Shown: one piece after another, positions 2,317 to 63,014 of the stretch
How the letters are laid out: each line of letters opens with the position of its first letter
Position numbering within the stretch: the stretch's first letter is position 1
Origin: Sorghum bicolor
Taxonomy: Eukaryota > Streptophyta > Magnoliopsida > Poales > Poaceae
Assembly (NCBI RefSeq): GCF_000003195.3
Contig: NC_012873.2
Span: 21,850,347-21,914,346, forward strand
Direction: 5' to 3'
Length of the DNA: 64,000 nucleotides
Translations under genes and position numbers: made by a program
Notes under the pieces: model-generated
Seen by the model: only the letters and a program-made list of their open reading frames with translations
Database searches by the model: none
What the model was told of the DNA's origin: nothing

Positions 2317-5300
2317 TCAGCTGTTGTCCTGAAGAGAAGCGTGGAACTCAGTAAAATTCTCCATCAGGTAATCTTCATATTCCCACGTGGCTTCTTCTTC
2401 AGAGTGCTGGCTCCACTATATCTTGTACCACTTGGGAGTTGTTCTTCGAGTAACTCTATTTCTTTGATCTAGTACTCGGATAGGATACTCCGAATAAGTT
2501 AGATCTGGTTCAAGTTCTACATCTTCAATATCTTGAACTTGGTCTGGTACCCGAAGACACTTCTTCAGTTGAGACACATGGAACACATTATGTATCCCGG
2601 ATAATCGTTCGGGCAGTTTAAGGCGGTAGGCTACCTGTCCACATCGGTCAATGATTGGAAATGGACCAATGTAATGGGGCGCTAACTTGCCTTTAACACC
2701 AAAATGATTTACTCCTATCATTGGGGATACTTTCAAATACACATGATCACCTTTGGCGAACCTTAATGGTCGACGTCTTTTATCGGCGTAGCTTTTCTGT
2801 CGGGACTGAGCAACTTTCAAGTTATTTTGGATTTGTCTCACTTTGTTCTCAGTCTCTTTCACTAAGTCAACCCCGAAGAACCATCTTTCTCCAGGTTCCG
2901 ACCAATGTAACGGAGTTCGACATCGACGGCCATATAGTGCCTCAAAGGGAGCCATCTTGATACTCTCTTGGTAGCTATTGTTGTAGGAGAACTCTGCTAG
3001 AGGCAAACAGTCATCCCATTTATCTGGAAAATTTAGGGCACAAGATCTTAATAGATCTTCTAGGGTTTGATTCACCCTCTCTGTTTGCCCACCTGTTTGA
3101 GGGTGGTAGGCTGTGCTGTATAAAAGTTTAGTGCCCAAGGACTCGTGTAGACATTTCCAGAATTGGGAGACAAATTGTGTGCCTCTATCTGACACTATTG
3201 TCTTTGGCACTCCATGCAGACTTAGGATACGATCAAAATAAATCTTAGCATAGGTGGAGGCAGGATACAATAGCTTTACAGGCAGAAAGTGTGCTGTTTT
3301 GGTGAGACGATCCACTATGACCCAAATTGAATCAAAGCCTTTGGCTGTCTTGGGCAGTCTTACTATGAAATCCATACTTATGTCATCCCATTTCCATGCT
3401 GGGATAGGCAAAGGTTGCAACTCCCCAGCGGATTTGAGATGAATAGCTTTGACTTTTCGGCAGGTGTCACATTGGGCCACATAGCGAGCTATTTCTATCT
3501 TCATTTTTGTCCACCAAAACCTTTGTTTTAGGTCCTGATACATCTTATTGCTTCCCGAATGAATAGAATACCTCGTGGTATGAGCTTCATCCAGGATTCG
3601 TTGACATTGCTCAGGTACCTTTGGAACCACTAAACGGTTCTTGAACCAGATTACTCCTGCACCATCCACCTTAAAGTCTGTGGGTGCTCTATTAGAAACC
3701 TTCTCTTTAAGATGTTTCATGCCTTTGTCTTCTTTTTGTGCCTCTATGATTTGAGCTTCGAGATTGAAGTCAATCTTTAGATTGGCAAGGTTGCCTTGGG
3801 AAATCATTTCTATCCCCAAGTTCTCTAGCTCTTGGCACAAAGTTATATCCCTAGGCGTCACTGTTAAGCAATTACAGTGGGCCTTACGACTGAGGGCATC
3901 AACTACTACATTTGCCTTGCCAGGATGATAATGCACCTTAAGGTCGTAATCTTTAATTAATTCTAGCCACCTTCGCTGGCGCATATTAAGCTCAGCTTGA
4001 GTAAAGATATACTTCAAGCTTTTGTGATCGGTGTATAGATGACATGTGCTCCCCAACAGATAATGACGCCAGATCTTTAATGCATGTACCACGGCGGCTA
4101 GTTCAAGATCATGGGTTGGGTAATTCTCTTCATGTGGTTTAAGTTGTCTGGAAGCATATGCAATTACGCGACCCTCCTGCATTAGCACACAGCCTATCCC
4201 TATCCCTGATGCGTCACAATACACATCAAAGGGCTTTTCAATATCTGGCTGGGCTAAGACAGGTGCAGTTGTCAATAACCTTTTCAGAGTCTGAAAGGCT
4301 TGCTCACATTGGGGTGACCAAACAAATTTTGTTTGATTTTTGAGCAAGGTCGTGATTGGTTTGGCGACTCTGGAAAAGTCCGGGATAAAACGACGGTAGT
4401 ATCCCGCCATACCCAGAAAACTACGGACCTCATGTACCGTAGTCGGGGGTTTCCAATTCAACACATCTTCTACCTTGCCTGGGTCTACAGCGACTCCCTC
4501 CGCTGACAATACATGACCCAGGAAATGAACTTTGTCTAGCCAGAACTCACATTTGCTGAACTTGGCATATAGTTGATGCTCCCTAAGACAGGTCAGCACA
4601 ATTCTCAGATGTTCAACATGTTCCTTCTTAGTCTTGGAGTAGATTAAGATGTCATCAATAAAGACGACCACAAATTTGTCTAGTTCTGGCATGAAGACAG
4701 AGTTCATCAAGTACATGAAATGGGCCGGTGCATTGGTCAACCCAAAAGACATTACCAAGTACTCATACAGCCCGTAACGGGTTGTAAAAGCTGTCTTGGG
4801 CACATCTTCCGGCCTAATTTTAATTTGGTGGTACCCTGATCTCAAATCAATTTTTGAGAACACTTTGGCCCCGGCTAGCTGGTCAAATAATAAGTCAATG
4901 CGGGGTAATGGGTACTTATTCTTAATCGTCACCTCATTCAGGGGACGATAGTCGACACACAGCCTTAATGTTTGATCTTTCTTTTTCACAAACAAGGCTG
5001 GGCAACCCCATGGGGAAGAACTAGGCTGAATAAAACCTTTCTGCAACAGCTCTTGTAATTGGGTTTTTAATTCGGCCAGCTCTTTCGGTGCCATTCTGTA
5101 GGCCCTTCGAGATATTGGGGCTGTCCCTGGTTTCAATTCTATACTGAATTGTACATCCTGGTCCGGAGGCAGACCTGGTAAGTCTTCAGGAAATACATCC
5201 GGAAAATCCCGAACTATCGGGATATCTTTGACTTCAGACACATTAGCAGCATGAACTTGCCCAATTGTCCGCTTGGGAGTAACTAATTGAATTAGCAAAT

Positions 5301-6849
5301 AAGAATTCTCATTGGGCAATGGGATTTTAATGGTTCGATGCAAAGTGTCTAGCACAACCCCTCGTTGAGCCATCCAGTTCATGCCTAATATGACATCAAT
5401 CTCCTGGTCTTTAAGAACAATCATGCTAGTGGGAAAACTATGCCCACCAAATTCGATGGGTATCTGGTGAACCATTTCTTTAGAGCTCAGCCGTCCTCCT
5501 GGCGACTGTATATAAAAATGATCTTGTGTTTCCCCAATGGGTATGCCATGCTTTAGCACAAAGGTGCGATTGATGAATGTATGAGATGCACCAGAATCGA
5601 AAAGCATTAAAGCAGGATGTTTCGCGACAGGAAACGTACCCATCATTACTGGTTCACCCTCCGGGATCGTCTCCACCTCCGTATGGAAGACTTGTCCCAC
5701 TTTCTTTGCTGGTTTTCCCCTTTGCACAGGTTGTCCTTTCTGAACCCCAGTCCTAAACTGACTCGGCTGGGGTTGGCCCATAGGTGGCCTTTGGAAGGTG
5801 GGGTTGGTTTGGCGGGGGAAAGGCCACTCTTTAGAAAAATGCCCAGGCTTACCACAATTGAAACAAGGGTAATTGTGGCTGGGCGGAGCAGTGGGGCGAA
5901 CACCTGGGGCGTTCGGCTGGCGTGGTGCAAAAGCGATGGCAGTAGGTCGAGAGTATACCTGCTGCCCTGGTCTATACTGTGGAGGGGAGAAAGGACCACG
6001 ATAAGGTGACGGCGCTTGGAAGCGTCCGTGGCCCTGCGGATGATAAATGATTCTCTGGCGCTTTAGACCGCGACCAGAGAAAGATGAAGAAGCAGCCTTC
6101 TTCTTGGCTTCTTTGTGCTTCCTATTCTTTTCTTCAGAGGCGATGGCAATATTTACCGCCTCATAGAAGGTAGCATTTTGGCAGGTCGTCATCATGGTCT
6201 GAAGTTTAGTATTTAGACCACGCATGAAGCAGGCTTTCTACTTTCTGTCAGTGTTCACATGGTCTGTGGCATATTGAGAGAGATGATTAAACTTTGCCAC
6301 GTATTCCATGACACTTTTATCGCCTTGTTGCAAGGCGAGAAATTCTTCGGCCTTCATGGCCATGAGCCCTTCGGGGATGTAATGGGCGCGGAACGCGTCC
6401 TTAAACTCAGTCCAGGTGACCTGGTGTCCCGGAGTTTGGATAGCTAGGAAGTTCTCCCACCAGGCACCTGCAGCTCCCCGAAGCTGCTGAGCTACAAACA
6501 GGGGCTTCTGAGTTTCTGAACACTGAATCAAACTGAACTTGTGCTCCATGGTCCGGAGCCAATCATCCGCTTCTAACGGCTCATCAGCCTTAGTGAATAC
6601 CGGGGGCCTTGTCTCGGTAAAGTCCACGTACCGAGCTTCTCCGTCCCCATTGTGCTGTGCCCTGAAGTTTGGGGCGGGGTGTGGTTGACGCTGTGCTAGC
6701 TCGCGCAGTAAGCGAGCATTGTCGGTAGTGGCACTCAACAGAACAGCTATGGCATCAGCCAAAGAAGGTGGAGTAGGTGGAGGGTTGGGGATATCATCCC
6801 CTCCCTGAGATGTTCCAGCTCCATCAGATCCACGTGTACGCATCGGCAT
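2317..6849 (-). pseudogene. gag-pol polyprotein of Tekay element A, two nonsense codons
   Basis: One long frame reads gag, protease, RT, RNase H, integrase and chromodomain. Gag starts at 6849 (MPMRTRGSDG). Visible motifs are the retropepsin [20 protein letters not shown], RNase H YCDASG and YTDHKSL, the integrase zinc region with CDTC, SDRGTQF with [13 protein letters not shown], and the GPF-type motif YIGPFP. The frame is stopped between 6225 and 6238 (TAG where B has AAG) and again just inside the chromodomain near 2416 (TAG where B has CAA). Beyond that stop the chromodomain core EEEATWE is still readable to a TGA at 2317-2319. The zinc knuckle is [14 protein letters not shown]: its last cysteine is replaced by tryptophan, where B keeps CPF. 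The element is therefore unlikely to be autonomous. The 5' neighbour is the extra ORF at 7062-7766, 212 bp upstream of gag. Confidence 0.92.
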
Positions 6850-7061: not shown

Positions 7062-7766
7062 CTAGTCGGTGTTGCCAGAGCTGTAGCCCGGGTCGTCATT
7101 GCAATTCTCCTGATTACCCCCTGGGTTGTTGTCATCGGGGTCGGACTCCTCTTCATCACTGAGGCCTTGATCGGGTTCCCCATCATCTGCCAACTCGCCA
7201 TCCGTATCCATCTCTCCTTCGCCTGGAGGTGGGTGGAGCTGATGATATAGATCAAATGCAATATCACGATATTGCATTGCCAAGTCATTGACGGTATCTA
7301 AGTGATGTGCCAGCTCCAGCTTCTCCAACTGGAGCTGGTCCTCCCGCTGCCACGCGACATCCCGCTGCGCGGTGACCGTGGCCGCCATTTTTACGTACAG
7401 ATCTTTAAGATACCTGGCCTTGCCCAGCTTCGCATTCATCCTAGTCAGCTCGTGCCTGTGTGCGCTCCTTGCCTCTTCTTCTCGGGCAATAGCGGCATTC
7501 CTCTCCTCCACCATACGGGTCAACATGGCCTCACAGTTCCTAGTAGCTTGTTTTTCTTTGGCTAGTTGAGCTTTGAGTTCGTCGATCTCCATAACATTGT
7601 ACATTCTTTCTCTCATCACCTCAGTCAACTCGGCGGACAACCTGTCCACCTCCTGCTGCGGCGGTGAACGGCTGCTGCTTGTTTGATCGCTTCGCGGGGC
7701 CTGCTGGTGTTTGGGGACCCCTTTTGGTCCTGTCCTCTTACGCGGGGTCAGCTTCCAACGAGGCAT
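7062..7766 (-). CDS. ORF0 upstream of gag: basic H3-tail-like N-terminus, coiled coil, acidic tail (intact, 234 aa)
   Basis: This intact frame lies between the PBS and gag on the element's coding strand, with a leader of about 360 bp and 212 bp before gag. It is not a standard Gypsy protein. Residues 1-35 are basic and S/T/P-rich. The sequence around residues 4-15 (LTPRKRTGPKG) shares K4, T6, R8, K9, T11, G12 and K14 with the histone H3 tail, although residues 1-5 (MPRWK) have drifted from the B copy. Residues about 38-165 are charged with heptad-like spacing (LSAELTEVMRERM, MVEERNAAIAREEEA), suggesting a coiled coil. The last ~50 residues are strongly acidic (DEEESDPDD). Compared with B at 57060-57330 there are about 30 base changes but only about 2 amino-acid changes, so selection has acted on the protein. 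The function is unknown; a chromatin-interacting cofactor is an inference. Confidence 0.8.
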   Translation of the reverse strand: MPRWKLTPRKRTGPKGVPKHQQAPRSDQTSSSRSPPQQEVDRLSAELTEVMRERMYNVMEIDELKAQLAKEKQATRNCEAMLTRMVEERNAAIAREEEARSAHRHELTRMNAKLGKARYLKDLYVKMAATVTAQRDVAWQREDQLQLEKLELAHHLDTVNDLAMQYRDIAFDLYHQLHPPPGEGEMDTDGELADDGEPDQGLSDEEESDPDDNNPGGNQENCNDDPGYSSGNTD

Positions 7767-11100: not shown

Positions 11101-12123
11101 TACGGTCGAGCGGGTGCTCCGGCTCCGGCGAGGTCGTCCTGGTGGTCCTGCTCACGTCCAGGGAGAACAAGCGAGCGCATGAGCATCGAGGAAACGAGAA
11201 GAGTTCGAAACGACCGCTTGGCGGCGTGCGCGGAGGCGGCTCTACCCCGGCGGACAAGCTGCGTGGCTGCGTGCGTGGCGGCGTGCGCGGAGGCGGCTCT
11301 GCCCCGGCGGCAGAGCACCCCCCCCCTGCCGAACACTATAGCAGAGCATATCCACCCAATTTGGAGTTTTGCAAAATTCGCCCGAATTTTGAACTAAAGA
11401 CAAAAACCCACCAAAACCAAAGTTACTCAGAATTTTATAAGCTACAATTCTTATTTTGGTGCCCAAGACAAAATCTGAGTGGGAAAAGGTTAATTTGGCC
11501 AAACAGTTTGAAAGTCAAAACTCAATTCCAAGGAATTCAAATTTTTTGAATTGGGGCAAATCAGAATTTCCAAAATTACTTTTGTTTTTCCTAAACAACT
11601 TGAAAAACTCCCAACATGAAAGTTGCTGAACTTTTTATGCTCGACAACTTTCATGTTGACCACTTTTCAAAATTCCAAATGGATTTTGAATTGGAGGTTT
11701 AATTTGGAAAAGGGGGCACTTTCTGGAAATCTGTGTTTTCAAAATTACTTTGAATTTTGTATTGAAACTTCAAAAACTCAAAACACCAAAGTTGTACACC
11801 TTAACAAGATCTACAACTTTGCTTTTGAACACATCCTCAACTTTTGCTTGGTTTTTGAATTGCACAAAAAGGGGCAATTCTAGGGTCCAGAAATCAGGGT
11901 TTTCCCCCCCCCCCCTAAGCCTTCGGAAAAACTTTACCCTAGGGTTTTAGCAACCAACCCAGGCATCACTAACAAGATAAACACACTTTAATTCCCTACG
12001 CACATTCAACCAAATTAAACTCATTTTAAGTTGATGCATCAAGGTGTGCTTAACCAATATGTTGTGCAATGCTGATGATGCCATGATCCAAATTTTAGGA
12101 ATCGTAACATCGGGGATGTTACA
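8142..12123 (-). repeat. 5' LTR of element A (3982 bp)
   Basis: Both termini are seen: + strand tgtggcagaacc at the left and gatgttaca at the right. The part 10302-12123 matches 1-2111, and the whole matches both LTRs of B. At 11218-11310 a GC-rich segment (gcgtgcgcggaggcggctct) occurs twice about 66 bp apart, next to the ~290-bp deletion relative to the left copy. The LTR holds no convincing gene. Confidence 0.93.
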
Positions 12124-47287: not shown

Positions 47288-47678
47288 GCAGCTGTTGATA
47301 TTTGGTAACGCAATCAAGAATTGACCCGTAAGCGCACGAATATCGGTGAGCACTTCACCCGGGATGTTATCCAGAGTATCGTATTTATATTTTTACCACT
47401 AGGAGAAAGCGTGCATCTGACTAACCCAGTCTATTACTACTAACCTTTAGGCTACAAACTATGTGATTCGATGTGAGCGATGTATAGAGAAGACTACAAC
47501 CGCATTCTCGTTCTAACCTTGGTAAGGATGATCTACTGTTCTGTTGGGGAGGCTTACGGAATCTAGACTCCACAAAGGATGTTCGACCCGCACCTATAAA
47601 CCCTATCGAGCCTGCTAATGGGATATGGGCTACAAAGGTAACTCGGAAATGTCACGTTCCTCGCTACTACCAAGGTAC

Positions 47679-50600
47679 TGTGGCAGAACCCCCTAAGTGT
47701 TTGGGCCCACCGGCACCTGCCATTGTCCTAAGGACCTCTGACGGTGATGCCGGGAGTCCTCCCACCTTAGAAGTCCGATGAGCATCGCTGGACGCTCATT
47801 CCACTGCTACCTGTGGCGTATCAAGCTGGCTCGTTCTGACCACTAGCAATGGTCAAGCAACGAGAACTGCTTCTTCTCGCCCTTACAGGATAGCAAGTGG
47901 CCACCTTAACACCAGGATCATTCGTTGCGAAGATAAAGCAGTAACTCCAACGACACAAGACTAAAATAATATTTCAGAGTAAAACAGCGGAAGTATTACA
48001 TAACTTAATTTACAAAAGGAGTTCTTCCAAATAGTAGAGTGTTATTACGAGCCTGGTCCAGCGGAGCAACTGAAACTTTAGTACAGACAGTACAAATTTA
48101 CAGACCCTGCCCATGGGTCACGCTCACTCTTCTTCGTCGTCAACCTCGATGACGGTCACACAACAGGGTCCGAAGCAAGTCGGCTCATGTGCTTCACCTG
48201 CAACAGGGGTATTGAAACCCTGAGTACGGGAGTACTCAACAAGACTTACCCGATGGGAAAAGAGGAGAACTTAGGGATGCAGGCTTAGGGTATACAAGGG
48301 GTGGCTGAGCAAGGAGCCAAAATGTTTTGCTAAAAGCTTACTAGTAGTGCATCCTTATTTTCAAGTTTTAACCGCGAATTCCTCTCCCGCAGAGGCCGAG
48401 GAGTTCGAGGATAGTTTAACTAGTTGTACCCCACAGACGAATCCGTGAGTTCCTAATCCTAACGTCAAGTATTATTTATCGATGGCCATAGCTTCATGTC
48501 GCTATGAGTCCGGGAATTGGGATCCGAACCTCATGAGACATTTTCCCCTTTCTCATTTTATCATTCAGTTGCTTATTTAACTACGATGAGGGTCGAAGGA
48601 ATTGAGTCTCCCAATCGGGGAGCAACGACGATTCGAATCGCTTAGCAATCCAGCTGGAGTTCCTAACCACCCGACATATGTAGAACTAAATCTTGCATAT
48701 ACCAACCCAAGTCAGGCTCTCCCCAGATTTGACCAGGTTCGCGGCACCCGAGAGCACAGTACTCCACCATCCTACAGCCGATCTAGATGTTTTCCGGTCA
48801 TCTCAGATCCGTAAGGTGGGTACACACTACTCTCGCCATCTTTCCACTCCCAGTGCGCGAGTAGCTGTTCGCGTCGAGGGATCACAAGACCGGGCTTACC
48901 GAGGGCAAGTGGTTAGTACTATAAATTCTCAACCCAGCAGGCCATCAACGGAACGGTCCTTAATCGACACAGTCGGAGACACTACTTTAAGACTCCATTC
49001 TTAGAGCAAGTCCACCGACCGGTCTCAAATTGAAACATCATTGATCATAAGTGTATCCCACAACAACCCTTCAAACTTTCTTGTCTAAAAACCTATCTAG
49101 TAGCAGGGATAAGCATCGCTACGCAGTTTTAAAATAAACAGGTGTCAAGGACAGGATAACAGATATCAAGGTAGTAAATGCAACAAGTAGGTTAACCCAA
49201 TTCTTAACTACATAATGCAGCATTTTCAATTTACAAGTGATAAAAGATTTAAAACATTCAAGGAGGGGTTAATGCATCCGGGGCTTGCCTTGGTTGCAGG
49301 GCAGAGGGGGACCCTCGGAGACTTCCCAAGTCTCGGATCCTACTTCTTCGAATGGAGCACCGACCTCGGGGTTCGGTTCAACGGGCGCTCCTTCGGTCAC
49401 GGACACTATACGCAAAATGATGAATGCTTATGATATGCGTATGGCAATTATGCAAGATGGACCGAATTAAGTACAATTTGCCTTCTTAATGCAATATAGA
49501 ATTGTCACTAAATAAAGTTGTTTAACAATTTACTGTTTTTACCCAAGAGGTTGCATTTGCAAAGTAAAATCTCTTTTAATTCATAATTAACCTGAATTAA
49601 CTAATTATTAACCCTATTTACCTTAATAAATTCTTAATTAACTGCTAATGACAGTAATTAAACATTAAGGTTAAACAATAATTAAATACCAAAGGTCATT
49701 AGGGTTAATGACCTCAGGTCATCACACAATCCCAAAATCACTCAAACCCTAATTATGAGGATTTAACTAATCATTGTTTAATTATTTTGGAATTATTATT
49801 TAAGTACTAAATAAGGGTTTATTAATATTTTACTCACACATTCTCCAAATGCCACCAAATTTTGTGTGGAGCCAGGGGATAATATTCAGAGGCTCCCCAC
49901 AATTTTTGGTGATTTTTGGACATCTCAATAAATTACAAAAATTCATAGAAGTTTTATTCATTAAATAAAAGAGGCAAAATTTTATATACTTGTAAACTAC
50001 TAGAAAACAGAACTTAATATTTTTCTTGGGTTCTAATCATTTCAGGGAATTTACACAAAAATTTTCATCATTTTTGGATCACCCCACAATTTTCTACACA
50101 ATTTCAAACATTCAGCAAAAATTGCATAAAAAGAAAAAGAAAAAGATTTTCGCGCAGCGGGCGGCCTGGAACTTGGCCCGCAAGCCGGCCCACGCGCGTT
50201 CGGCCTGCACACGCGCTGCGCGCGCCGCCCCTCCCCTCACGTGGACACTGACGAGCGGGCCCCGCTCGTCAGTTCCATCTCCCTCGCACCCGGCGGCCTT
50301 GCCGCGCTCCCGGTCGCCGCTGGCGAGGTTCAAGCCCCACACCAGGGTGCGCATCAGTTGCGCCTCGACCTTGCGACCCCATAGGTACAACTCGAGGACA
50401 CTCTACCGTTCTCTTCCTTCCTCGGCCACGTGAATGGCGGGCGGCCACCCTGGCCGGCCGTAGACCGGTCCTCGGGGCTTGGTAGAGCACAAACCAACAG
50501 GTTCGGGAGGGCCAGGAAGGAATGGGGATCATGGTGCTCACACCACCACGGCGGAAGACACAACAGAGAAGCTTAGCGACGGTGGCCGTGCAGTCGGGCG

Positions 50601-51906
50601 GCGCCCCGGCTCCGGTGAGGTCGTCTCGGTGGCCCTGTTCACGTCCAAGGAGGGAAAACGAGCGCATGAGCATCGGGGAAACAAGAAGAGCTCGAAACGA
50701 CCGCCTTCAAGGCGTGGTACCGACTGGAGCAGCGTGTCCACGTGAAGGATTCCTCGGCGGCGACCCTGGCCGGAGTTGGAGAAGAGGGGGGGTGTTCCGG
50801 CGATTGAGTGGACTAGGGAGTGAGCTCGGAGGTGCACTGGGTTCGCAAGGAGGTGGCGGATGCTATGGACCGGTCAATTTAGCTCGGGAAGGATTGGTTG
50901 CGGTGAATTGAAAAGAGAAGCTCGTCGGGTTCTCTGGCTCAGAACAGAGGAAACGCGCGGCGGCACCCACGCTGGTGCTCAAAGGGGAGGAGATGAGCCA
51001 AGGGCGTCCACGTTGCCTGGCGACGCAGGCAAGCAGGCAGCTGCGTGCCCACACGGGCGCTCGCGGTGCTGCGCGCACGGCGGCCGCGTTGGACAGGGAG
51101 CCGGTGATCCCTATCGGGTCACTGTAGCAGACCCTTATCCCCTCTTTTCTGAACTTTGTGAAATTCAGCCGAAATTTGAACTGGAGTCAAATTTGTGTCA
51201 AAACAAAAGTTGTTCCAAATTTTATAAGCTACAAAACATGTTTCGGTGACCAGAGCTGATTTTGAGTGTAACAGGGTGAATTTGGCCAAAACAGTTTGGA
51301 AATCAAAATTCAATTTGAGAGGATTCAAATTTTTAACTTGGGGCAGATTAGAATTTCCAAAATTACTTTTGTTTTTCCTAAACAACTTGAAAAACTCCCA
51401 ACATGAAAGTTGCTCAACTTTTTGTGCTCTACAACTTTCATGTTGACCACTTTTCAAAATTCCAAATGGATTTTGAATTTGGAGGTTTAATTTGGAAAAG
51501 GGGACACTTTTCGGAAATCTGTATTTTCAAAATTACTTTGAATTTTGTATTGAAACTTCAAAAACTCAAAACACCAAAGTTGTACATCTTGCCAAGAGCT
51601 ACAACTTTGCTTTTGAACTCAACCTCAAATTTTGCTTAGTTTTTGACTTATGCAAAAGGGGGCAAATCTAGGATCCAGAAATCAGGGTTTTTCCCCCTTT
51701 TAGCTTTTCGGAAAATTTCCACCCTAGGGTTTAGCAACCACACAAGCATCAACACACCACATAAGCACACTCTACCTCCCTAAGCTCAAGCAATCAAAGT
51801 AAACTGGTTTTAAGTTGATGCATACTGATATGCTTAACAAATATGATTTGCAATGCTCATGATGACATGATCCGTTTTTAGTAACCGTAACATCGGGGAT
51901 GTTACA
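47679..51906 (-). repeat. 3' LTR of element B (4228 bp)
   Basis: Termini TGTGGCAG and GATGTTACA on the + strand. It has a GC-rich core at about 50150-51120 flanked by AT-rich arms. The 13-bp stem-loop is at 51400-51444. The short frames inside are not conserved as proteins. Confidence 0.95.
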
Positions 51907-51921
51907 GCCCTTCCCCCTTAA
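51907..51921 (-). other. Polypurine tract of element B
   Basis: The minus strand reads TAAGGGGGAAGGGC directly before the 3' LTR start. Confidence 0.8.
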
Positions 51922-52111
51922 AGAAATCTCGTCCCCGAGATTTAAAACCCTTAGGGTAAGTAATGGAAAAGGAAATTTGTCAAAACTCTTTCATCTTCAA
52001 CTTTCCCATAAGGCAAGAAGTTGGGGAAAACACTCCATTATAAGCATATATGTACATTGAGTGCATGGCTCTGGTGACTCTTTTCCTTCACTAGAGTACA
52101 CTCTCTATTTA

Positions 52112-55100
52112 TCACGTGTTGTCCTGAAGAGAAGCGTGGAATTTAGGGAAATTCTCTAGCAAGTAATCTTCAGATTCCCAGGTGGCTTCCTCTTCAGAGT
52201 GCTGGCTCCATTGTACCTTGTACCATTTGGTGGTTGTTCTTCGAGTAACTCTATCTTTCTGATCCAGTACTCGGATAGGATACTCCGAATAAGTTAGATC
52301 TGGTTCAAGTTCTACATCTTCAATATCCTGAACTCGGTCTGGTACCCGTAGACACTTTTTCAGTTGAGACACATGGAACACATTATGCACCCCGGATAAT
52401 CGTTCGGGCAGTTTAAGGCGGTAAGCGACCTGTCCACATCGGTTAATGATTGGAAATGGACCAATGTAACGAGGCGCTAACTTGCCTTTAACACCAAAAC
52501 GATTTACTCCTTTCATCGGGGATACTTTCAAATACACATGATCACCTTTGACGAACTTTAATGGTCGACGTCTTTTATCAGCGTAACTTTTCTGTCGGGA
52601 CTGAGCAACTTTCAAGTTATTTTGGATTTGTTTCACTTTGTTCTCAGTCTCTTTCACTAGGTCAACCCCGAAGAACCATCTTTCTCCAGGTTCCGACCAG
52701 TGTAATGGAGTTCGACATCGGCGACCATACAGTGCCTCAAAGGGAGCCATCTTGATACTCTCTTGGTAGCTATTATTGTAAGAAAATTCTGCTAGAGGCA
52801 AGCAGTCATCCCACTTATCTGGAAAATTCAGGGCACAAGATCTTAATAGATCTTCTAGGGTTTGATTCACTCTTTCAGTTTGCCCACCGGTTTGAGGGTG
52901 GTAGGCTGTGCTGTATAAAAGCTTAGTGCCTAGGGACTCATGTAAACATTTCCAGAATTGGGAGACAAATTGTGTGCCTCTATCTGACACTATTGTCTTT
53001 GGCACCCCATGCAGACTTAGGATACGGTCGAAATAAATCTTAGCATAGGTGGAGGCAGGATACAATAGCTTTACAGGAAGAAAATGTGCTGTTTTGGTGA
53101 GACGATCTACTATGACCCAAATTGAATCAAAGCCCTTGGCCGTCTTGGGCAATCCTACTATGAAATCCAAACTTATGTCATCCCATTTCCATGCGGGGAT
53201 AGGCAAAGGTTGCAACTCCCCAGCGGACTTGAGATGAATGGCTTTGACCTTTCGACAGGTGTCACATTGGGCCACATAGCGAGCTATCTCTATCTTCATT
53301 TTTGTCCACCAAAACCTTTGCCTTAGGTCCTGATACATCTTATTGCTTCCCGGATGAACAGAATACCTCGTGGTATGAGCTTCATCTAGGATTTGTTGAC
53401 GTAGCTTAGGTACCTTTGGAACCACTAACCGGTTCTTGAACCAGATTACTCCCGCATCATCCACCTTAAAGTCTGTGGGTGCTTTATTAGAAATCTTCTC
53501 TTTAAGATGTCTCATGCCTTTGTTTTCTTTTTGTGCCCTTATGATTTGAGCTTCGAGATTGAAGTCGATCTTTAAATTGGCAAGGCTTCCTTGGGAAATC
53601 ATTTCTATCCCTAAGTTCTCTAGCTCTTGGCACAAAGTTATATCCCTAGGCGTCACTGTTACGCAATTACAGTGAGCCTTACGACTAAGGGCATCAGCTA
53701 CTACATTTGCCTTGCCAGGGTGATAATGCACCTCAAGGTCGTAATCTTTAATTAATTCTAGCCACCTTCGCTGGCGCATATTAAGCTCAGCTTGAGTAAA
53801 GATATACTTCAAGCTTTTGTGATCTGTATATAGATGACATGTGTTCCCCAACAGATAATGACGCCAGATCTTTAATGCATGTACCACGGCGGCTAGTTCA
53901 AGATCATGGGTCGGGTAATTCTCTTCATGGGGTTTGAGTTGTCTGGAAGCATATGCAATTACGCGACCCTCCTGCATTAGCACACAGCCTATCCCGATTC
54001 CTGATGCATCACAATATACATCAAAGGGTTTTTCAATATCTGGCTGGGCTAAGACAGGTGCAGTTGTCAACAACCTTTTCAGAGTCTGAAAGGCTTGCTC
54101 ACATTGGGGTGACCAAACAAACTTGGTTTGATTTTTGAGCAAGGTTGTGATTGGTTTGGCGACTCTGGAAAAGTCCGGGATAAAACGACGGTAATATCCC
54201 GCCATACCCAGAAAACTACGGACCTCATGTACCGTAGTCGGGGGTTTCCAATTCAACACGTCTTCTACCTTGCCTGGGTCTACAGCGACTCCCTCCGCTG
54301 ATAATACATGACCCAGGAAATGGACTTTGTCCAGCCAGAACTCACATTTGCTGAACTTGGCATATAGCTGATGCTCCCTAAGACGGGTCAGCACGATTCT
54401 CAAGTGTTCGGCATGTTCTTTCTTAGTCTTGGAGTAAATCAAGATATCATCGATAAAAACGACCACAAATTTGTCTAGTTCTGGCATGAAGACAGAGTTC
54501 ATTAGGTACATGAAATGGGCCGGCGCATTGGTCAACCCAAAAGACATCACTAAGTATTCATACAGCCCGTAACGGGTTGTAAAAGCTGTCTTGGGCACAT
54601 CTTCCGGCCTAATTTTAATTTGGTGGTACCCTGATCTCAAATCAATTTTTGAGAACACTTTGGCCCCAGCTAGTTGGTCAAACAATAAGTCAATGCGGGG
54701 CAGTGGGTACTTGTTCTTAATCGTCACCTCATTTAGGGGACGATAGTCGACACACAGCCTTAATGTTTGATCTTTCTTTTTCACAAACAAGGCTGGGCAA
54801 CCCCATGGAGAAGAACTGGGCTGAATAAAACCCTTCTGCAACAACTCTTGTAATTGGGTTTTTTAATTCGGCCAGCTCTTTCGGTGCCATTCTGTAGGCC
54901 CTTCGAGATATTGGGGCTGTTCCTAGTTTCAATTCTATACTGAATTGTACATCCCGGTCCGGAGGTAGACCTGGTAAGTCTTCAGGAAATACATCCGGAA
55001 AATCTCGAACTACCGGGATATCTTTAACTTCAGACACATTCGCGGCATGAACTTGCCCCATTGTCCATTTGGGAGTAACTAATTGAATTAGCAAATAAGA

Positions 55101-56645
55101 ATTCTCATTGGGCAATGGGATTTTAATGGTTCGATGCAGAGTGTCCAGCACAACCCCTCGTTGTGCCATCCAGTTCATGCCCAAGATGACATCAATCTCT
55201 TGGTCCTTAAGGACAATCATGCTAGTAGGAAAATTATGCCCACCAAATTCGATGGGTACTTGGTGAACCATTTCTTTGGACATCAGTCGTCCTCCTGGCG
55301 ACTGTATATAAAAATGATCTTGTGTTTCCCCAATGGGTATACCATGCTTTAACACAAAGGTGCGATTAATGAATGTATGAGATGCACCAGAATCAAAGAG
55401 CATTAAAGCAGGATGTTTCGCAACAGGAAACGTACCCATCATCACTGGTTCGCCCTCTGGAATCGTTTCCACTTCAGTATGGAAGACTTGCCCTGTCTTC
55501 TTTACCGGTCTACCTTTCTGTACCTGTTGCCCTTTTTGAGTCCCAGTCCTGAACTGACTCGGCTGGGGTTGGCCCATAGGTGGCCTTTGAAAGGTAGGAT
55601 TGGTTTGGCGGGGAAAAGGGCACTCTTTAGAGAAATGCCCAGGCTTACCACAATTGAAGCAAGGGTAATTGTGGCTGGGCAGAGCAGTGGGGCGAACACC
55701 TGGGGTGTTCGGCTGACGTGGTGCAAGAGTGATGGCAGTAGGTCGAGAGTATACCTGCTGCCCTGGTCTGTACTGTGGAGGGGAGAAAGGACCACGATAC
55801 GGTGACGGCGCTGGGAAGCGTCCGTGGCCCTGTGGATGATAAATGATCTTCTGGCGCTTTTGACCGCGACCAGAGAAAGAGGAGGAAGCAGCCTTCTTCT
55901 TGGCTTCCTTGTGTTTCCTATTCTTTTCCTCTGAGGCGATAGCAATATTTACCGCCTCATAGAAAGTAGCATTTTGGCACGTGGTCATCATGGTCTGAAG
56001 TTTAGTATTTAGACCACGCATGAAATAGGCTTTCTTCTTTCTGTCAGTGTTCACATGATCCGTGGCATATTGAGAGAGATGATTAAACCTTGCCACGTAC
56101 TCCATAACACTTTTATCGCCTTGCTGCAAGGCGAGAAACTCTTCGGCCTTCATGGCCATGAGCCCTTCGGGGATGTAGTGGGCGCGAAACGCGTCCCTAA
56201 ACTCAGTCCAGGTAACCTGGTGACCGGGAGCTTGGATAGCTAAGAAGTTCTCCCACCAGGCACCTGCAGCTCCCCGAAGCTGCTGAGCTGCAAACAGGGG
56301 CTTCTGAGTTTCTGAACACTGAATCAAACTGAACTTATGCTCCATAGTTCGGAGCCAGTCATCCGCTTCTAAAGGCTCATCGGCCTTAGTGAACACCGGG
56401 GGCCTGGTCTCGGTAAAGTCCACATACCGAGTCTCTCCGTCCCCGTTGCGCGGTGCCCTGAAATTTGGAGTAGGGTGTGGTTGACGCTGTGCTAGCTCGC
56501 GCAGCAAGCGAGCATTGTCAGTAGTGGCATTTAACAGAACAGCAATGGCGTCAGCCAAAGAAGGTGGAACAGGTGGAGGGTTGGGGATATCATCCCCTCC
56601 CTGGGATGTCCCAGCTCCCTCAGATCCGCGAGTACGCATCGGCAT
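52112..56645 (-). pseudogene. gag-pol of Tekay element B, single 1-base frameshift
   Basis: The first frame, from 56645, holds Gag (WLRTMEHKFSLIQCSE, then AAGAWWENFLA), an intact CCHC zinc knuckle ([14 protein letters not shown]) and retropepsin FDSGASHTF. The second, 910 codons ending at 52112, holds RT (FIDDILIYS), RNase H (YCDASG, YTDHKSL, ADALSRK), integrase (CDTC, SDRGTQF, QTERVNQ, YIGPFP) and a complete group II chromodomain (WYKVQW, EEEATWE). The frames part near 54860, where the sense strand has six A and element A has five. Everything else is open, so B could be near-functional or simply misread at one base. The chromodomain is expected to bind methylated histone tails and steer integration to heterochromatin. 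Confidence 0.95.
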
Positions 56646-56858
56646 CTGTTACAAGAGTTGTAGATACCTGTTACCACGTGAAATTCATAACACAGAACAT
56701 ATCTTACATTCTTCCATTCACTTATTAAACATTAGTTCAACACACCAAGAGTAAACAGGTACAACTTCTCAAACCGAAAGAGAACTTATATTACAAACCC
56801 GAACCCCACTACGGCAAGCTAGAACTCCTACAACGACGTTGCCCTCGGTTTCATCGAA

Positions 56859-57562
56859 CTAATCGGCGTGGCCAGAGCTGTAGCCCGGGTCGTCATTGCC
56901 ATCATCCTGATTACCCCCTGGGTTGTGGTCATCGGAGTCGGACTCCTCTTCATCACTGAGGCCGGGGTCGGGTTCCCCATCGTCTGCCAACTCGCCATCC
57001 GTATCCATTTCCCCTTCGCCGGGAGGTGGGTGGAGTTGATGATACAGATCAAATGCAATATCACGATATTGCATAGCTAGGTCATTGACTGTATCTAAGT
57101 GATGTGCCAGCTCCAGTTTCTCCAGCTGGAGCTGGTCCTCTCGTTGCCACGCGACATCCCGCTGTGCGGTGACCGTGGCCGCCATCTTCACATACAAATC
57201 CTTAAGATACCTTGCCTTGCCCAACTTTGCGTTCATCCTAGTTAGCTCATGCCTATGTGTGCTCCTAGCTTCTTCCTCTCGGGCAATGGCTGCATTCCGC
57301 TCCTCCACCATCCGGGACAACATAGCCTCACAGTTCTCTGTAGCTTGTTTTCTTTGGCCAGTTGAGCTTTAAGTTTGCCAATCTCCATAACATTGTACAT
57401 TCTCTCTCTCATCACCTCAGTCAACTCGGCGGACAACCTGTCCACCTCCTGCTGAGGCGGCGAACGGCTACTACTGGCTTGATCACTGCGTGGAGCTAGC
57501 TGATGTCGGGGAACTCCTTTTGGACCAGTCCGCTTACGCGGGGTCTGCTTCTGACGAGCCAT
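56859..57562 (-). pseudogene. ORF0 of element B with histone H3-tail-like N-terminus, one 1-base frameshift
   Basis: The start at 57562 reads MARQKQTPRKRTGPKG and continues VPRHQLAPRSD. Against the mature histone H3 tail, with a one-residue insertion after K14-G, 15 of the first 21 H3 positions match, including A1, R2, K4, Q5, T6, R8, K9, T11, G12, K14 and the later PR and QLA. After residue ~35 it becomes a charged coiled coil, then an acidic tail (DEEESDSDD). There is no histone fold. One T is missing from a T run near 57345 (four where A has five), shifting the frame; the rest aligns with A's intact 234-residue copy. It sits between the PBS and gag on the coding strand. A role in docking to chromatin readers, including the element's own chromodomain, is inference. 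Confidence 0.82.
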
Positions 57563-57921
57563 CCTGTAGAGGGTAAGTTTAGATTAGTAAGAAAGACCTT
57601 AAAGGTTAGCAAGAATAGGATTGATTCTATTCACCCAACCCAAACAAGGAGGAAGGAACTTAACCAGTTAATACATCATGATGCATGCACGAACTTACGA
57701 TTCCTACTAACAATTCGTAACGATATTACTTTAAACTTTTACAACATAGGGCAATACTTTATGTTGCTCCTCCATACCACTTCCAAAAATTCTAAGAAAG
57801 CCTATAGACAGGGGTAGGTTAGGACTAAGCACTTGGACTCAAAATAGGCAGGTTCATAGTATTAGATCCAAACGAATTTTGAAGTTTTTCAATAGTTACA
57901 GCAGTCATCTTAGCAACGAAG
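57563..57921 (-). other. 5' leader of element B
   Basis: Untranslated stretch between PBS and ORF0 start, aligned with A's leader at 7767-8127. No gene is seen. Confidence 0.6.
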
Positions 57922-57933
57922 GCTCTGATACCA
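57922..57933 (-). other. Primer binding site of element B (initiator Met tRNA type)
   Basis: The minus strand reads TGGTATCAGAGC two bases after the LTR end, identical to A. Confidence 0.93.
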
Positions 57934-57935
57934 GC

Positions 57936-60900
57936 TGTGGCAGAACCCCCTAAGTGTTTGGGCCCACCGGCACCTGCCATTGTCCTAAGGACCTCTGACG
58001 GTGATGCCGGGAGTCCTCCCACCTTAGAAGTCCGATGAGCATCGCTGGACGCTCATTCCACTGCTACCTGTGGCGTATCAAGCTGGCTCGTTCTGACCAC
58101 TAGCAATGGTCAAGCAACGAGAACTGCTTCTTCTCGCCCTTACAGGATAGCAAGTGGCCACCTTAACACCAGGATCATTCGTTGCGAAGATAAAGCAGTA
58201 ACTCCAACGACACAAGACTAAAATAATATTTCAGAGTAAAACAGCGGAAGTATTACATAACTTAATTTACAAAAGGAGTTCTTCCAAATAGTAGAGTATT
58301 ATTACGAGCCTGGTCCAGCGGAGCAACTGAAACTTTAGTACAGACAGTACAAATTTACAGACCCTGCCCATGGGTCACGCTCACTCTTCTTCGTCGTCAA
58401 CCTCGACGACGGTCACACAACAGGGTCCGAAGCAAGTCGGCTCATGTGCTTCACCTGCAACAGGGGTATTGAAACCCTGAGTACGGGAGTACTCAACAAG
58501 ACTTACCCGATGGGAAAAGAGGAGAACTTAGGGATGCAGGCTTAGGGTAGACAAGGGGTGGCTGAGCAAGGAGCCAAAATGTTTTGCTAAAAGCTTACTA
58601 GTAGTGCATCCTTATTTTCAAGTTTTAACCGCGAATTCCTCTCCCGCAGAGGCCGAGGAGTTCGAGGATAGTTTAACTAGTTGTACCCCACAGACGAATC
58701 CGTGAGTTCCTAATCCTAACGTCAAGTATTATTTATCGATGGCCATAGCTTCATGTCGCTATGAGTCCGGGAATTGGGATCCGAACCTCATGAGACATTT
58801 TCCCCTTTCTCATTTTATCATTCAGTTGCTTATTTAACTACGATGAGGGTCGAAGGAATTGAGTCTCCCAATCGGGGAGCAACGACGATTCGAATCACTT
58901 AGCAATCCAGCTGGAGTTCCTAACCACCCGACATATGTAGAACCAAATCTTGCATATACCAACCCAAGTCAGGCTCTCCCCAGATTTGACCAGGTTCGCG
59001 GCACCCGAGAGCACAGTACTCCACCATCCTACAGCCGATCTAGATGTTTTTCGGTCATCTCAGATCCGTAAGGTGGGTACACACTACTCTCGCCATCTTT
59101 CCACTCCCAGTGCGTGAGTAGCTGTTCGCGTCGAGGGATCACAAGACCGGGCTTACCGAGGGCAAGTGGTTAGTACTATAAATTCTCAACCCAGCAGGCC
59201 ATCAACGGAACGGTCCTTAATCGACACAGTCGGAGACACTACTTTAAGACTCCATTCTTAGAGCAAGTCCACCGACCGGTCTCAAATTGAAACATCATTG
59301 ATCATAAGTGTATCCCACAACAACCCTTCAAACTTTCTTGTCTAAAAACCTATCTAGTAGCAGGGATAAGCATCGCTACGCAGTTTTAAAATAAACAGGT
59401 GTCAAGGACAGGATAACAGATATCAAGGTAGTAAATGCAACAAGTAGGTTAACCCAATTCTTAACTACATAATGCAGCATTTTCAATTTACAAGTGATAA
59501 AAGATTTAAAACATTCAAGGAGGGGTTAATGCATCCGGGGCTTGCCTTGGTTGCAGGGCAGAGGGGGACCCTCGGAGACTTCCCAAGTCTCGGATCCTAC
59601 TTCTTCGAATGGAGCACCGACCTCAGGGTTCGGTTCAACGGGCGCTCCTTCGGTCACGGACACTATACGCAAAATGATGAATGCTTATGATATGCGTATG
59701 GCAATTATGCAAGATGGACCGAATTAAGTACAATTTGCCTTCTTAATGCAATATAGAATTGTCACTAAATAAAGTTGTTTAACAATTTACTGTTTTTACC
59801 CAAGAGGTTGCATTTGCAAAGTAAAATCTCTTTTAATTCATAATTAACCTGAATTAACTAATTATTAACCCTATTTACCTTAATAAATTCTTAATTAACT
59901 GCTAATGACAGTAATTAAACATTAAGGTTAAACAATAATTAAATACCAAAGGTCATTAGGGTTAATGACCTCTGGTCATCACACAATCCCAAAATCACTC
60001 AAACCCTAATTATGAGGATTTAACTAATCATTGTTTAATTATTTTGGAATTATTATTTAAGTACTAAATAAGGGTTTATTAATATTTTACTCACACATTC
60101 TCCAAATGCCACCAAATTTTGTGTGGAGCCAGGGGATAATATTCAGAGGCTCCCCACAATTTTTGGTGATTTTTGGACATCTCAATAAATTACAAAAATT
60201 CATAGAAGTTTTATTCATTAAATAAAAGAGGCAAAATTTTATATACTTGTAAACTACTAGAAAACAGAACTTAATATTTTTCTTGGGTTCTAATCATTTC
60301 AGGGAATTTACACAAAAATTTTCATCATTTTTGGATCACCCCACAATTTTCTACACAATTTCAAACATTCAGCAAAAATTGCATAAAAAGAAAAAGAAAA
60401 AGATTTTCGCGCAGCGGGCGGCCTGGAACTTGGCCCGCAAGCCGGCCCACGCGCGTTCGGCCTGCACACGCGCTGCGCGCGCCGCCCCTCCCCTCACGTG
60501 GACACTGACGAGCGGGCCCCGCTCGTCAGTTCCATCTCCCTCGCACCCGGCGGCCTTGCCGCGCTCCCGGTCGCCGCTGGCGAGGTTCAAGCCCCACACC
60601 AGGGTGCGCATCAGTTGCGCCTCGACCTTGCGACCCCATAGGTACAACTCGAGGACACTCTACCGTTCTCTTCCTTCCTCGGCCACGCGAATGGCGGGCG
60701 GCCACCCTGGCCGGCCGTAGACCGGTCCTCGGGGCTTGGTAGAGCACAAACCAACAGGTTCGGGAGGGCCAGGAAGATGGGGATCATGGTGCTCACACCA
60801 CCACGGCGGAAGACACAACAGAGAAGCTTAGCGACGGTGGCCGTGCAGTCGGGCGGCGCCCCGGCTCCGGTGAGGTCGTCTCGGTGGCCCGGTTCACGTC

Positions 60901-62161
60901 CAAGGAGGGAAAACGAGCGCATGAGCATCGGGGAAACAAGAAGAGCTCGAAACGACCGCCTTCAAGGCGTGGTAGCGACTGGAGCAGCGTGTCCACGTGA
61001 AGGATTCCTCGGCGGCGACCCTGGCCGGAGTTGGAGAAGAGGGGGGGTGTTCCGGCGATTGAGTGGACTAGGGAGTGAGCTCGGAGGTGCACTGGGTTCG
61101 CAAGGAGGTGGCGGATGCTATGGACCGGTCAATTTAGCTCGGGAAGGATTGGTTGCGGTGAATTGAAAAGAGAAGCTCGTCGGGTTCTCTGGCTCAGAAC
61201 AGAGGAAACGCGCGGCGGCACCCACGCTGGTGCTCAAAGGGGAGGAGATGAGCCAAGGGCGTCCACGTTGCCTGGCGACGCAGGCAAGCAGGCAGCTGCG
61301 TGCCCGCACGGGCGCTCGCGGTGCTGCGCGCACGGCGGCCGCGTTGGACAGGGAGCCGGTGATCCCTATCGGGTCACTGTAGCAGACCCTTATCCCCTCT
61401 TTTCTGAACTTTGTGAAATTCAGCCGAAATTTGAACTGGAGTCAAATTTGTGTCAAAACAAAAGTTGTTCCAAATTTTATAAGCTACAAAACATGTTTCG
61501 GTGACCAGAGCTGATTTTGAGTGTAACAGGGTGAATTTGGCCAAAACAGTTTGGAAATCAAAATTCAATTTGAGAGGATTCAAATTTTTAACTTGGGGCA
61601 GATTAGAATTTCCAAAATTACTTTTGTTTTTCCTAAACAACTTGAAAAACTCCCAACATGAAAGTTGCTCAACTTTTTGTGCTCTACAACTTTCATGTTG
61701 ACCACTTTTCAAAACTCCAAATGGATTTTGAATTTGGAGGTTTAATTTGGAAAAGGGGACACTTTTCGGAAATCTGTATTTTCAAAATTACTTTGAATTT
61801 TGTATTGAACCTTCAAAAACTCAAAACACCAAAGTTGTACATCTTGCCAAGAGCTACAACTTTGCTTTTGAACTCAACCTCAAATTTTGCTTAGTTTTTG
61901 ACTTATGCAAAAGGGGGCAAATCTAGGATCCAGAAATCAGGGTTTTTCCCCCTTTTAGCTTTTCGGAAAATTTCCACCCTAGGGTTTAGCAACCACACAA
62001 GCATCAACACACCACATAAGCACACTCTACCTCCCTAAGCTCAAGCAATCAAAGTAAACTGGTTTTAAGTTGATGCATACTAATATGCTTAACAAATATG
62101 ATTTGCAATGCTCATGATGACATGATCCGTTTTTAGTAACCGTAACATCGGGGATGTTACA
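57936..62161 (-). repeat. 5' LTR of element B (4226 bp)
   Basis: Nearly identical to 47679-51906. The stem-loop is at 61655-61699 and the GC-rich core at about 60410-61375. Confidence 0.95.
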
Positions 62162-63014
62162 GGTACAGCTAGACAGGGGATATCTATGAGTATCCTAACC
62201 CAAACACCATGTTTACACTAGAGATGATTACTCTAAACTCTACGCGAAGAGATCAAAGTAAACTCATAAACCAAAGAACAATAAAACAAAGAACTTACTA
62301 GAATTTAGAAGTCGAAATACTGAAGAATCCTAGGAGCAAGCCTCGGGTTAGGAGACTTTATCCCACAGGTATAACCTCGGAGTAGACACCGACAGGCTAG
62401 GCTTCCTCCGATCTACACCTCCACTCTATCTCTCTGAATCTAGTAGAACTAATTCTACTCTCACATTGGATGCTAAGCCCTATGAGGTTGGAACCCTAAG
62501 GAACCTCTCTCTCTGAATCCTCTCTGGAAATATGCTAATGAATAATGGGGATTCTATCCCTCTAGGGGCAAGGGGCCTCGCTTATATAGCCCTCTCAAAT
62601 GAATCTGGGCCGTCGGGTCAAACTGACCTTGATTGAACGGTTCTCCTTGATCCTCAAAGGCGGTGGAGCATAATCCGCGTGATTCACCCTGATTGGCCAC
62701 CAGAGGTGGGCGGGCGCCCAAGGGGGGAGGGCGGGCGCCCTGCCCTCGGGCCCGATCGGCCTCCCGTTCGTTCCCGTGGCTTCTAGACTCTTCTAGATGA
62801 TAGAAAATTGTGCGTCACGTTAATATCTCTATGTAAACCCGACATGTGGGCCTTTTCTCCATATTTCCTGATAACTCCTGCAGAAATAGACAAACACCAA
62901 AACTCGTGGAATTCTGTCAGATAAGTCCCTAAGTCTGGGTGTTGGTTGCATTTTGATCTTTTTCTTTATTTATTTGATGATTATATTTGGTACTTAAGGA
63001 CCGTCAACAGCAGC

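Follow-up and report, generated by a model that had tools for sequence, protein, structure and literature searches.

A conserved histone H3-like tail on the ORF0 proteins of grass Tekay-type retrotransposons, predicted to engage the H3K9 methylation machinery

Viruses and host proteins are known to mimic histones, and mimics with an H3K9-like or H3K4-like motif include viral examples such as influenza NS1. The H3K9-like mimics targeted by EHMT/G9a are non-histone proteins with a linear motif resembling H3, which was derived from 10-residue segments (PMC10611923). The ORF0 proteins described here share such a motif but match H3 in register from its first residue, at 15–19 of 21 positions, occur in several retrotransposon types and are known from sequence. 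A host-protein-like segment in an additional ORF is likewise reported for orchid Ty3/Gypsy elements with an m6A demethylase domain (PMC9289625, PMC12786077). That addition is an enzyme, whereas the addition in ORF0 is a histone tail that is predicted to be disordered.

ORF0 itself is known from the rice elements Retrosat2, RIRE3 and RIRE8 and is reported within the grass family only, with hydrolase-like functions proposed by modelling (PMC3485330). The 5' additional ORFs of Tekay elements, of which Sb7 of Sorghum bicolor has been modelled, encode proteins predicted to be nuclear and to resemble DRBM proteins (PMC11728184). All of these elements have long terminal repeats (LTRs) of considerable length and, like the elements reported here, an additional ORF that lies behind the 5' LTR and ahead of gag. 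These ORFs are divergent and have no established function (PMC3485330, PMC11728184). No H3 likeness is described for them, since 'histone' occurs 0 times in the two main texts (PMC3485330, PMC11728184). The word also occurs 0 times in a review of additional ORFs (PMC7264820). Among the literature matches listed, which mostly leave subscription papers outside, no description of an H3 tail in a transposon protein was found.

The window, a 64,000-nucleotide stretch of Sorghum bicolor DNA, holds two elements, A and B, which match at 90% over 9.9 kb in a window self-BLAST. Element B (47679..62161, minus strand) is a Ty3/Gypsy chromovirus of Tekay type by its domains and ORF0. Its LTRs, delimited by the same self-BLAST, lie at 47679-51906 and 57936-62161, and the letters of the ends and flanks show a 5-bp target-site duplication, GGTAC (47674-47678 and 62162-62166). 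Over 4228 aligned bases the LTR pair has 4212 identical positions, 16 mismatches and 2 gap columns. With an assumed rate of 1.3e-8 substitutions per site and year, the 16 mismatches give an age of ~0.15 million years. Read along the minus strand, the 5' LTR is followed by a likely primer-binding site (57922..57933, minus strand), which we take to be complementary to the 3' end of the plant initiator-Met tRNA, and then by ORF0, gag-protease and pol with a chromodomain. The extra ORF thus starts at 57562, between the LTR at 57936-62161 and gag at 56645. By Pfam, the gag-protease frame (54729..56645, minus strand) contains Retrotrans_gag, a zinc knuckle and RVP_2, and the pol frame (52112..54547, minus strand) runs from the second part of reverse transcriptase (RT) to integrase and the chromodomain. 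Gag, protease, RT, RNase H, integrase and chromodomain stand in chromovirus order.

The ORF0 of B is broken. In its present state it has 106 codons (57242..57562, minus strand), departing from the family frame near residue 71 and ending in a stop, and the remaining 154 amino acids, with the coiled-coil and acidic C-terminal parts, lie in a different frame (56859..57323, minus strand). ORF0 of A is open over 234 codons (7062..7766, minus strand, 234 aa), and many other genomic copies are open too. The gag and pol frames of A (6238-6849 and 2416-6225, Pfam) occupy 2416..6849 on the minus strand. Element A is apparently cut by the window start, and LTR-like repeats near it pair 1-921 with 10300-11220 (98.2%) and 1255-2111 with 11257-12123 (97.8%).

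The original prediction held that B's ORF0 begins with a mimic of the H3 tail, and the alignment with H3 agrees. From the start codon (57562-57560, minus strand) the protein reads MARQKQTPRKRTGPKGVPRHQLAPRSDQ, and Met plus the equivalents of H3 1-23, with one inserted residue, occupy 57488..57562 on the minus strand. This segment matches 15 of the first 21 H3 residues; its counterpart in A (7692..7766, minus strand) matches 11 of 21, again as predicted. The BLOSUM62 local score of B against the H3 tail is 60, which is reached by 0 of 20,000 shuffles of B's own 28 residues. A scores 39, attained by 99 of 20,000 shuffles, so A alone is less remarkable. When all six frames of the window are scored, the H3 tail reaches 59, whereas the best of 500 shuffled H3 tails reaches 48; as controls within the window, the H4 tail scores 35 and H3 outside the ORF0 site 39. 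A blind search of the PDB with the first 29 residues of B also bears out the likeness. In the 60 of 119 matches listed, every chain is H3 or H3-type (H3mm variants, Cse4, an H3/CENP-A chimera), with a best E of 0.0066 and alignments beginning at query residue 1 or 2. A scan of viral contigs gave 20 pattern stretches and 0 relatives.

Conservation within the B-type family was assessed in proteins and in genomic copies. A protein search with A ORF0 returned 42 relatives among 343 candidates, and a search with the first 44 residues of the database protein P0001 returned five candidates, four of them relatives and all of these from the B-type family. A profile search gave 810 matches at E <= 10 among 7994 scored, of which the best 120 were used. 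The whole N-terminus is included in 58 of these 120; the remaining 62 start later or elsewhere and are left out of the counts, among them the relatives P0098 and P0106, which have a different N-terminus. In the 58 database N-termini, K14 is present in all, K4, T6, K9, Q19 and L20 in 57 each, A21 in 56, P16 in 55 and G12 in 51. R2, R8 and R17 are found in 38, 41 and 39, with replacements that are mostly H or C. The arginine columns are thus lost mainly to H or C while the lysine columns barely vary, a pattern that would fit decay of methylated CG in CGN codons of silenced copies. One group, comprising 43 of the 58, has members that are nearer to H3 than B is, for example P0063 with MARTKKTPRKSTGPKGVPRHQLAPRN.

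The genomic sample is small: 58 B-type copies, of which 8 came from a DNA query (541 first-look candidates), 30 were the best matches to the ORF0 protein P0042 (1974 first-look candidates in the protein search) and 20 were picked by hand for variety. K4, K9, G12 and A21 are kept in all 58 and K14 in 57, and six of the 58 tails have a stop codon at one position. Most copies were retrieved with queries containing the tail, so ORF0s lacking it are under-counted. The original prediction left to such a comparison whether the H3-like residues are peculiar to one copy or vary freely, and across the N-termini of the family they do neither. The B type nevertheless differs from H3 at T3, A7, S10, G13, A15 and K18 besides its inserted residue, and its non-H3 residues (P7, P13, G15, V, H18, P22) are roughly as conserved as the H3 ones. 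This drift, together with the equal conservation, means that the partner of the B type may no longer be an H3 binder.

Tails closer to H3 were found when the same genome was searched with the H3 tail itself. The 150 scored matches, from 1130 first-look candidates, comprise 8 H3 genes, four loci with H3 exons followed by an intron (L067, L068, L069, L074) and 138 other places aligned from query residue 1 at 50-91% identity. The letters were read for 34 distinct places of the 138, in two sets of 18 and 16 loci, with L091, where the tail was missed, and three repeats dropped; among the unread places, at least two, at 91% and 83% identity, may themselves be exons of host genes. All 34 are ORF0s, in two kinds of 347-349 codons where open and a third kind, L098, of 155 codons. 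In L089 and L090, ORF0 lies upstream of gag, protease, RT and integrase (Pfam), and in L098 a gag similar to B's comes after it. The short ORF0 of L098 (588-1055) consists of the H3 tail, a short likely coil and an acidic end. In L092 and L078, a conserved central region (LEEFGMPTLLWRV...AGVFPRGDP) stands between tail and coil at residues ~35-160; it is absent in the B type.

The sister tails, exemplified by L078 (MARTKQTARKSTGGRAPRGQLAPR), L070 (MARTRLTARKSTGGRAPRHQLATR) and L098 (MARTRQTARKSTGGRVPRHQLASR), align with H3 without a gap. Of the first 21 H3 residues, 4 places share 19, 19 places share 17, 10 share 16 and 1 shares 15. A1, T3, T6, A7, R8, K9, S10 and G12 are present in all 34, and R2 and T11 in 33. 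The lysines other than K9 are swapped: K4 is kept in 4 and R in 30, K14 is kept in 0 (R 29, Q 4, W 1), K18 in 0 (H 23, R 7, G 4), and K23 in 1 with R in 33. K9 is never R in these tails, and it is the sole lysine retained in every ORF0 type seen, including the B type and the P0063 group. From these comparisons it is very probable that the tail is genuine, extends through the family in the copies read and derives from H3 in its sequence. Histone mimicry at the sequence level is supported, and more strongly than first thought.

The extent of the likeness points to its source. In all four of the host H3 loci that contain an intron, it falls exactly at the K23/A24 junction (AAG followed by GT), and in all four exon 2 (AARKSAPTTGGV) stands behind AG. 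This exon carries T31 and Y41, which we take to be H3.3 marks. The eight other host H3 genes have no intron at K23/A24. In the ORF0 types read, the likeness spans Met to residue 23, ending where the first coding exon of the host ends, and no histone fold follows downstream. One of the four loci, L069, has an acceptor immediately before its ATG, and ORF0 resembles it in this as well. A conserved 24-nt block (57563..57586, minus strand) that ends in CTCTACAG followed by G abuts the ORF0 ATG in splice-acceptor-like form; in 21 B-type copies its mean majority base is 0.97 compared with 0.90-0.91 in the preceding 36 nt. The ORF0 ATG follows AG (in the B type, AG plus G) in 16 of 16 rows from 14 places and in all of the 21 B-type copies compared. 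The gag ATGs of A (6849), B (56645), L089 (4424) and L090 (oriented 3405) also directly follow AG, at the acceptor-like sites TTGTAGCAG, TTGTAACAG, ATATGTAG and ATATGCAG, respectively. That gag and ORF0 both start after AG suggests that both ORFs may be reached by splicing, possibly alternative. The simplest account, and a probable one, is that the tail is a captured host H3 exon: an ancestral element would have taken up the first coding exon of an H3.3-type gene, plus its acceptor.

Such a capture would be old. Comparison of sister types gives, for the tail, pS of 0.60-0.76 and pN of 0.16-0.20, and that of host H3.3 L069 with ORF0 tails gives pS of 0.54-0.78 and pN of 0.18-0.23. Synonymous sites near saturation with amino acids kept indicate a tail that is old and has been retained as protein. 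Where the residue is the same as in host H3, identical codons number 8-10 of 20 in L089/L090, 4-9 of 17-18 in L070/L092 and 4-11 of 18 in L098, about equal to the 9.0-11.4 of 22 expected from ORF0 codon use. The top pair, L098 against the H3.3 gene L069 (11 of 18), is not clearly above expectation, and no DNA-level trace of the capture stands out in the codon comparison with host H3 genes. Recent capture of a gene fragment is rejected on both grounds, codon identity near expectation and synonymous sites near saturation.

Selection on the tail differs between types. The 19 dereplicated representatives of 37 open B-type copies (228-256 codons) give a dN/dS of 0.10 for the tail and of 0.07-0.10 for other parts. 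In 3 pairs of K4-type tails, all 10 differences are synonymous. The K4R-type tail is less constrained than the rest of its protein (0.20, 0.12): its pN/pS is 0.66, from few changes, with 12 synonymous and 18 non-synonymous ones in total over pairs of 5 copies, at positions 14, 18, 19 and 22.

The ORF0 types are also related beyond the tail. With the first 30 residues removed, a stricter BLASTP setting on a 22-sequence database pairs L078 with L092 at 2e-59, P0063 with A and L092 with P0063 at 2e-15 each, L092 with P0042 at 1e-12, L078 with P0063 at 4e-9, L092 with A at 3e-6 and L078 with A at 4e-4. L098 is weakly matched in this setting (P0063 1e-4, L078 7e-4, none listed to L092 or A); a looser setting pairs it with L092 at 3e-13. 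By eye, the C-terminal ends have an LHEEvHqLyNqLhP-like stretch in common, with acidic residues after it in most cases.

A predicted structure of A ORF0, based on 43 sequences, has a mean pLDDT of 78.8 and a pTM of 0.38. Residues 1-31 are below pLDDT 50 except 4-8, a single helix spans 35-177, and the acidic end is of low confidence. ORF0 is thus predicted to run from a disordered tail through a single helix into an acidic C-terminus that is also disordered. A fold search of the PDB with this model gave 0 matches. No Pfam histone domain was found in six ORF0 entries or in A ORF0, and the Pfam matches that ORF0 does give (chorismate mutase, ATG16, bestrophin, others) are all below the Pfam cut-offs. 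An H3 gene or pseudogene is ruled out as the identity of ORF0 by the end of the likeness at residue 23, the lack of a Pfam histone domain and the single helix predicted for A.

This architecture suggests how the tail might act. Proteins that bind the H3 tail recognise its free A1-R2 end. ORF0 may be expressed from a message spliced at the AG abutting the ATG, and removal of the initiator Met would give the same amino end as H3, the next residue being nearly always A, G, P or T. All 58 genomic B-type copies have A, G or P at residue 2, all 34 sister tails have A there, and 57 of the 58 database N-termini have A, G, P or T. Oligomerisation through the coiled coil would put several tails on each particle, and the tail on its coiled-coil rod may engage host writers and readers of H3K9 methylation. 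Silencing based on H3K9 would be weakened or redirected, or the element would be tethered to H3K9 proteins. H3-like tails that can be methylated at K9 and are carried on a coiled coil would form a soluble stand-in for a silenced nucleosome. R8-K9 stands at the centre of the motif that G9a-type enzymes methylate, in non-histone mimics too (PMC10611923). The plant reader ADCP1 recognises H3K9me2 but not unmodified H3, and phosphorylation of S10 weakens its binding (PMC6318295).

The original prediction also offered the element's own chromodomain as a reader of the methylated tail. The chromodomain that it placed at the end of integrase stands in B, where Pfam Chromo covers pol-frame residues 766-802 (52142..52252, minus strand) at E 1.1e-5 and 25.7 bits against a cut-off of 25.1; none is reported for the pol frame of A. 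In that frame (2416-6225) the integrase SH3-like domain is present, and the frame ends earlier than in B. The chromodomain-like ends of L089 and L090, at 18.9 and 16.3 bits, are under the same cut-off. Weak matches of the B domain (E 0.036-0.86) include Clr4, CDYL and HP1-type chromodomains. By eye, it keeps the cage tryptophan, its first cage position is uncertain and its third is H, as it also is in L089 and L090; the HP1-type cage of three aromatic residues is therefore lacking in all three. Plant group II chromodomains, those of Tekay included, are reported to be without Y24 and usually without Y48, and the Tekay motif is EEXTWEXE (PMC3350952). Its counterpart is EEATWESE in B and RDASWETE in L089/L090. 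That B encodes both tail and chromodomain, and L089/L090 a tail with a sub-threshold chromodomain-like end, would suit such pairing, as would the arrival of group II chromodomain-fluorescent protein fusions at heterochromatin by a mechanism described as unestablished (PMC12786077). The histidine at the third position and the cage residues missing in group II chromodomains (PMC3350952, PMC12786077) make the domain a poor candidate for a reader of the tail. The proposal is not supported, and that the methylated tail is a ligand of this domain seems quite improbable.

Other explanations address what the tail does, or whether it is a protein feature at all. The captured tail could be just a basic segment for nuclear import or nucleic-acid binding, its H3 identity a relic of origin. 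The tails are basic in the types read, K to R at 4, 14 and 23 preserves charge, and Tekay 5' additional-ORF proteins are predicted to be nuclear (PMC11728184). A need for charge would not, however, account for the uncharged A1, T3, T6, A7, T11, G12, P16, L20 and A21, none of which is missing from more than one of the 34 sister tails, or for K9, which unlike the other lysines is never R there. We regard this explanation as unlikely, although it keeps appreciable weight. The tail might alternatively serve as a histone surrogate in the element's particle or with histone chaperones, for example bound by the acidic C-terminus of ORF0. Acidic C-terminal segments are present in the ORF0 types compared (the P0042 sequence being incomplete), but a surrogate leaves the retention of K9 alone across all types unexplained, and its probability is low. 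Chance or low-complexity likeness, conceivable for ~21 residues and for A taken alone (99 of 20,000 shuffles), is rejected: 0 of 20,000 and 0 of 500 shuffles reach B, and related proteins of sister types hold 15-19 of 21 H3 residues. Its probability is very slight. The same slight probability is given to an RNA-level signal, such as a splice acceptor or exonic enhancer, as the cause of conservation. An acceptor-like conserved block does precede the ATG, yet within codons 2-40 of the 21 B-type copies third positions vary more than first and second (majority base 0.84 compared with 0.96) and dN/dS in the tail is low. RNA-level constraint is rejected on this codon pattern.

The preferred reading remains that of a decoy for, or hijack of, host readers and writers, as originally suggested, here narrowed to H3K9 because no lysine but K9 is shared by all the ORF0 types seen. 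Within it, draining or blocking of the silencing machinery is favoured over tethering since the element's chromodomain already offers a tether. The weaker constraint on the K4R-type tail counts against this reading, as does the drift of the B type from H3, and arginine at K4, K14 and K23 also fits a need for charge alone. Function through the host H3K9 machinery is given an even chance. The fuller statement, that the grass Tekay-type ORF0 carries a conserved H3 1-23, likely a captured H3.3-type exon, displayed on a coiled coil and predicted to engage H3K9 writers and readers, is about evenly balanced too. More tentative is the suggestion that the captured H3.3 exon may supply a self-encoded tail, many to a coil and in some types nearly reduced to K9, with which the element would capture or blunt the H3K9 methylation machinery that silences it.

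With an H3 tail at its start, ORF0, a protein with no established function in the cited literature, becomes open to a concrete and cheap test. If the reading is true, these elements would be a case of a transposon fighting or exploiting the very mark that silences it. They would also amount to a natural test of the importance of individual H3-tail residues, with K9 kept throughout and the other lysines discarded in some types.
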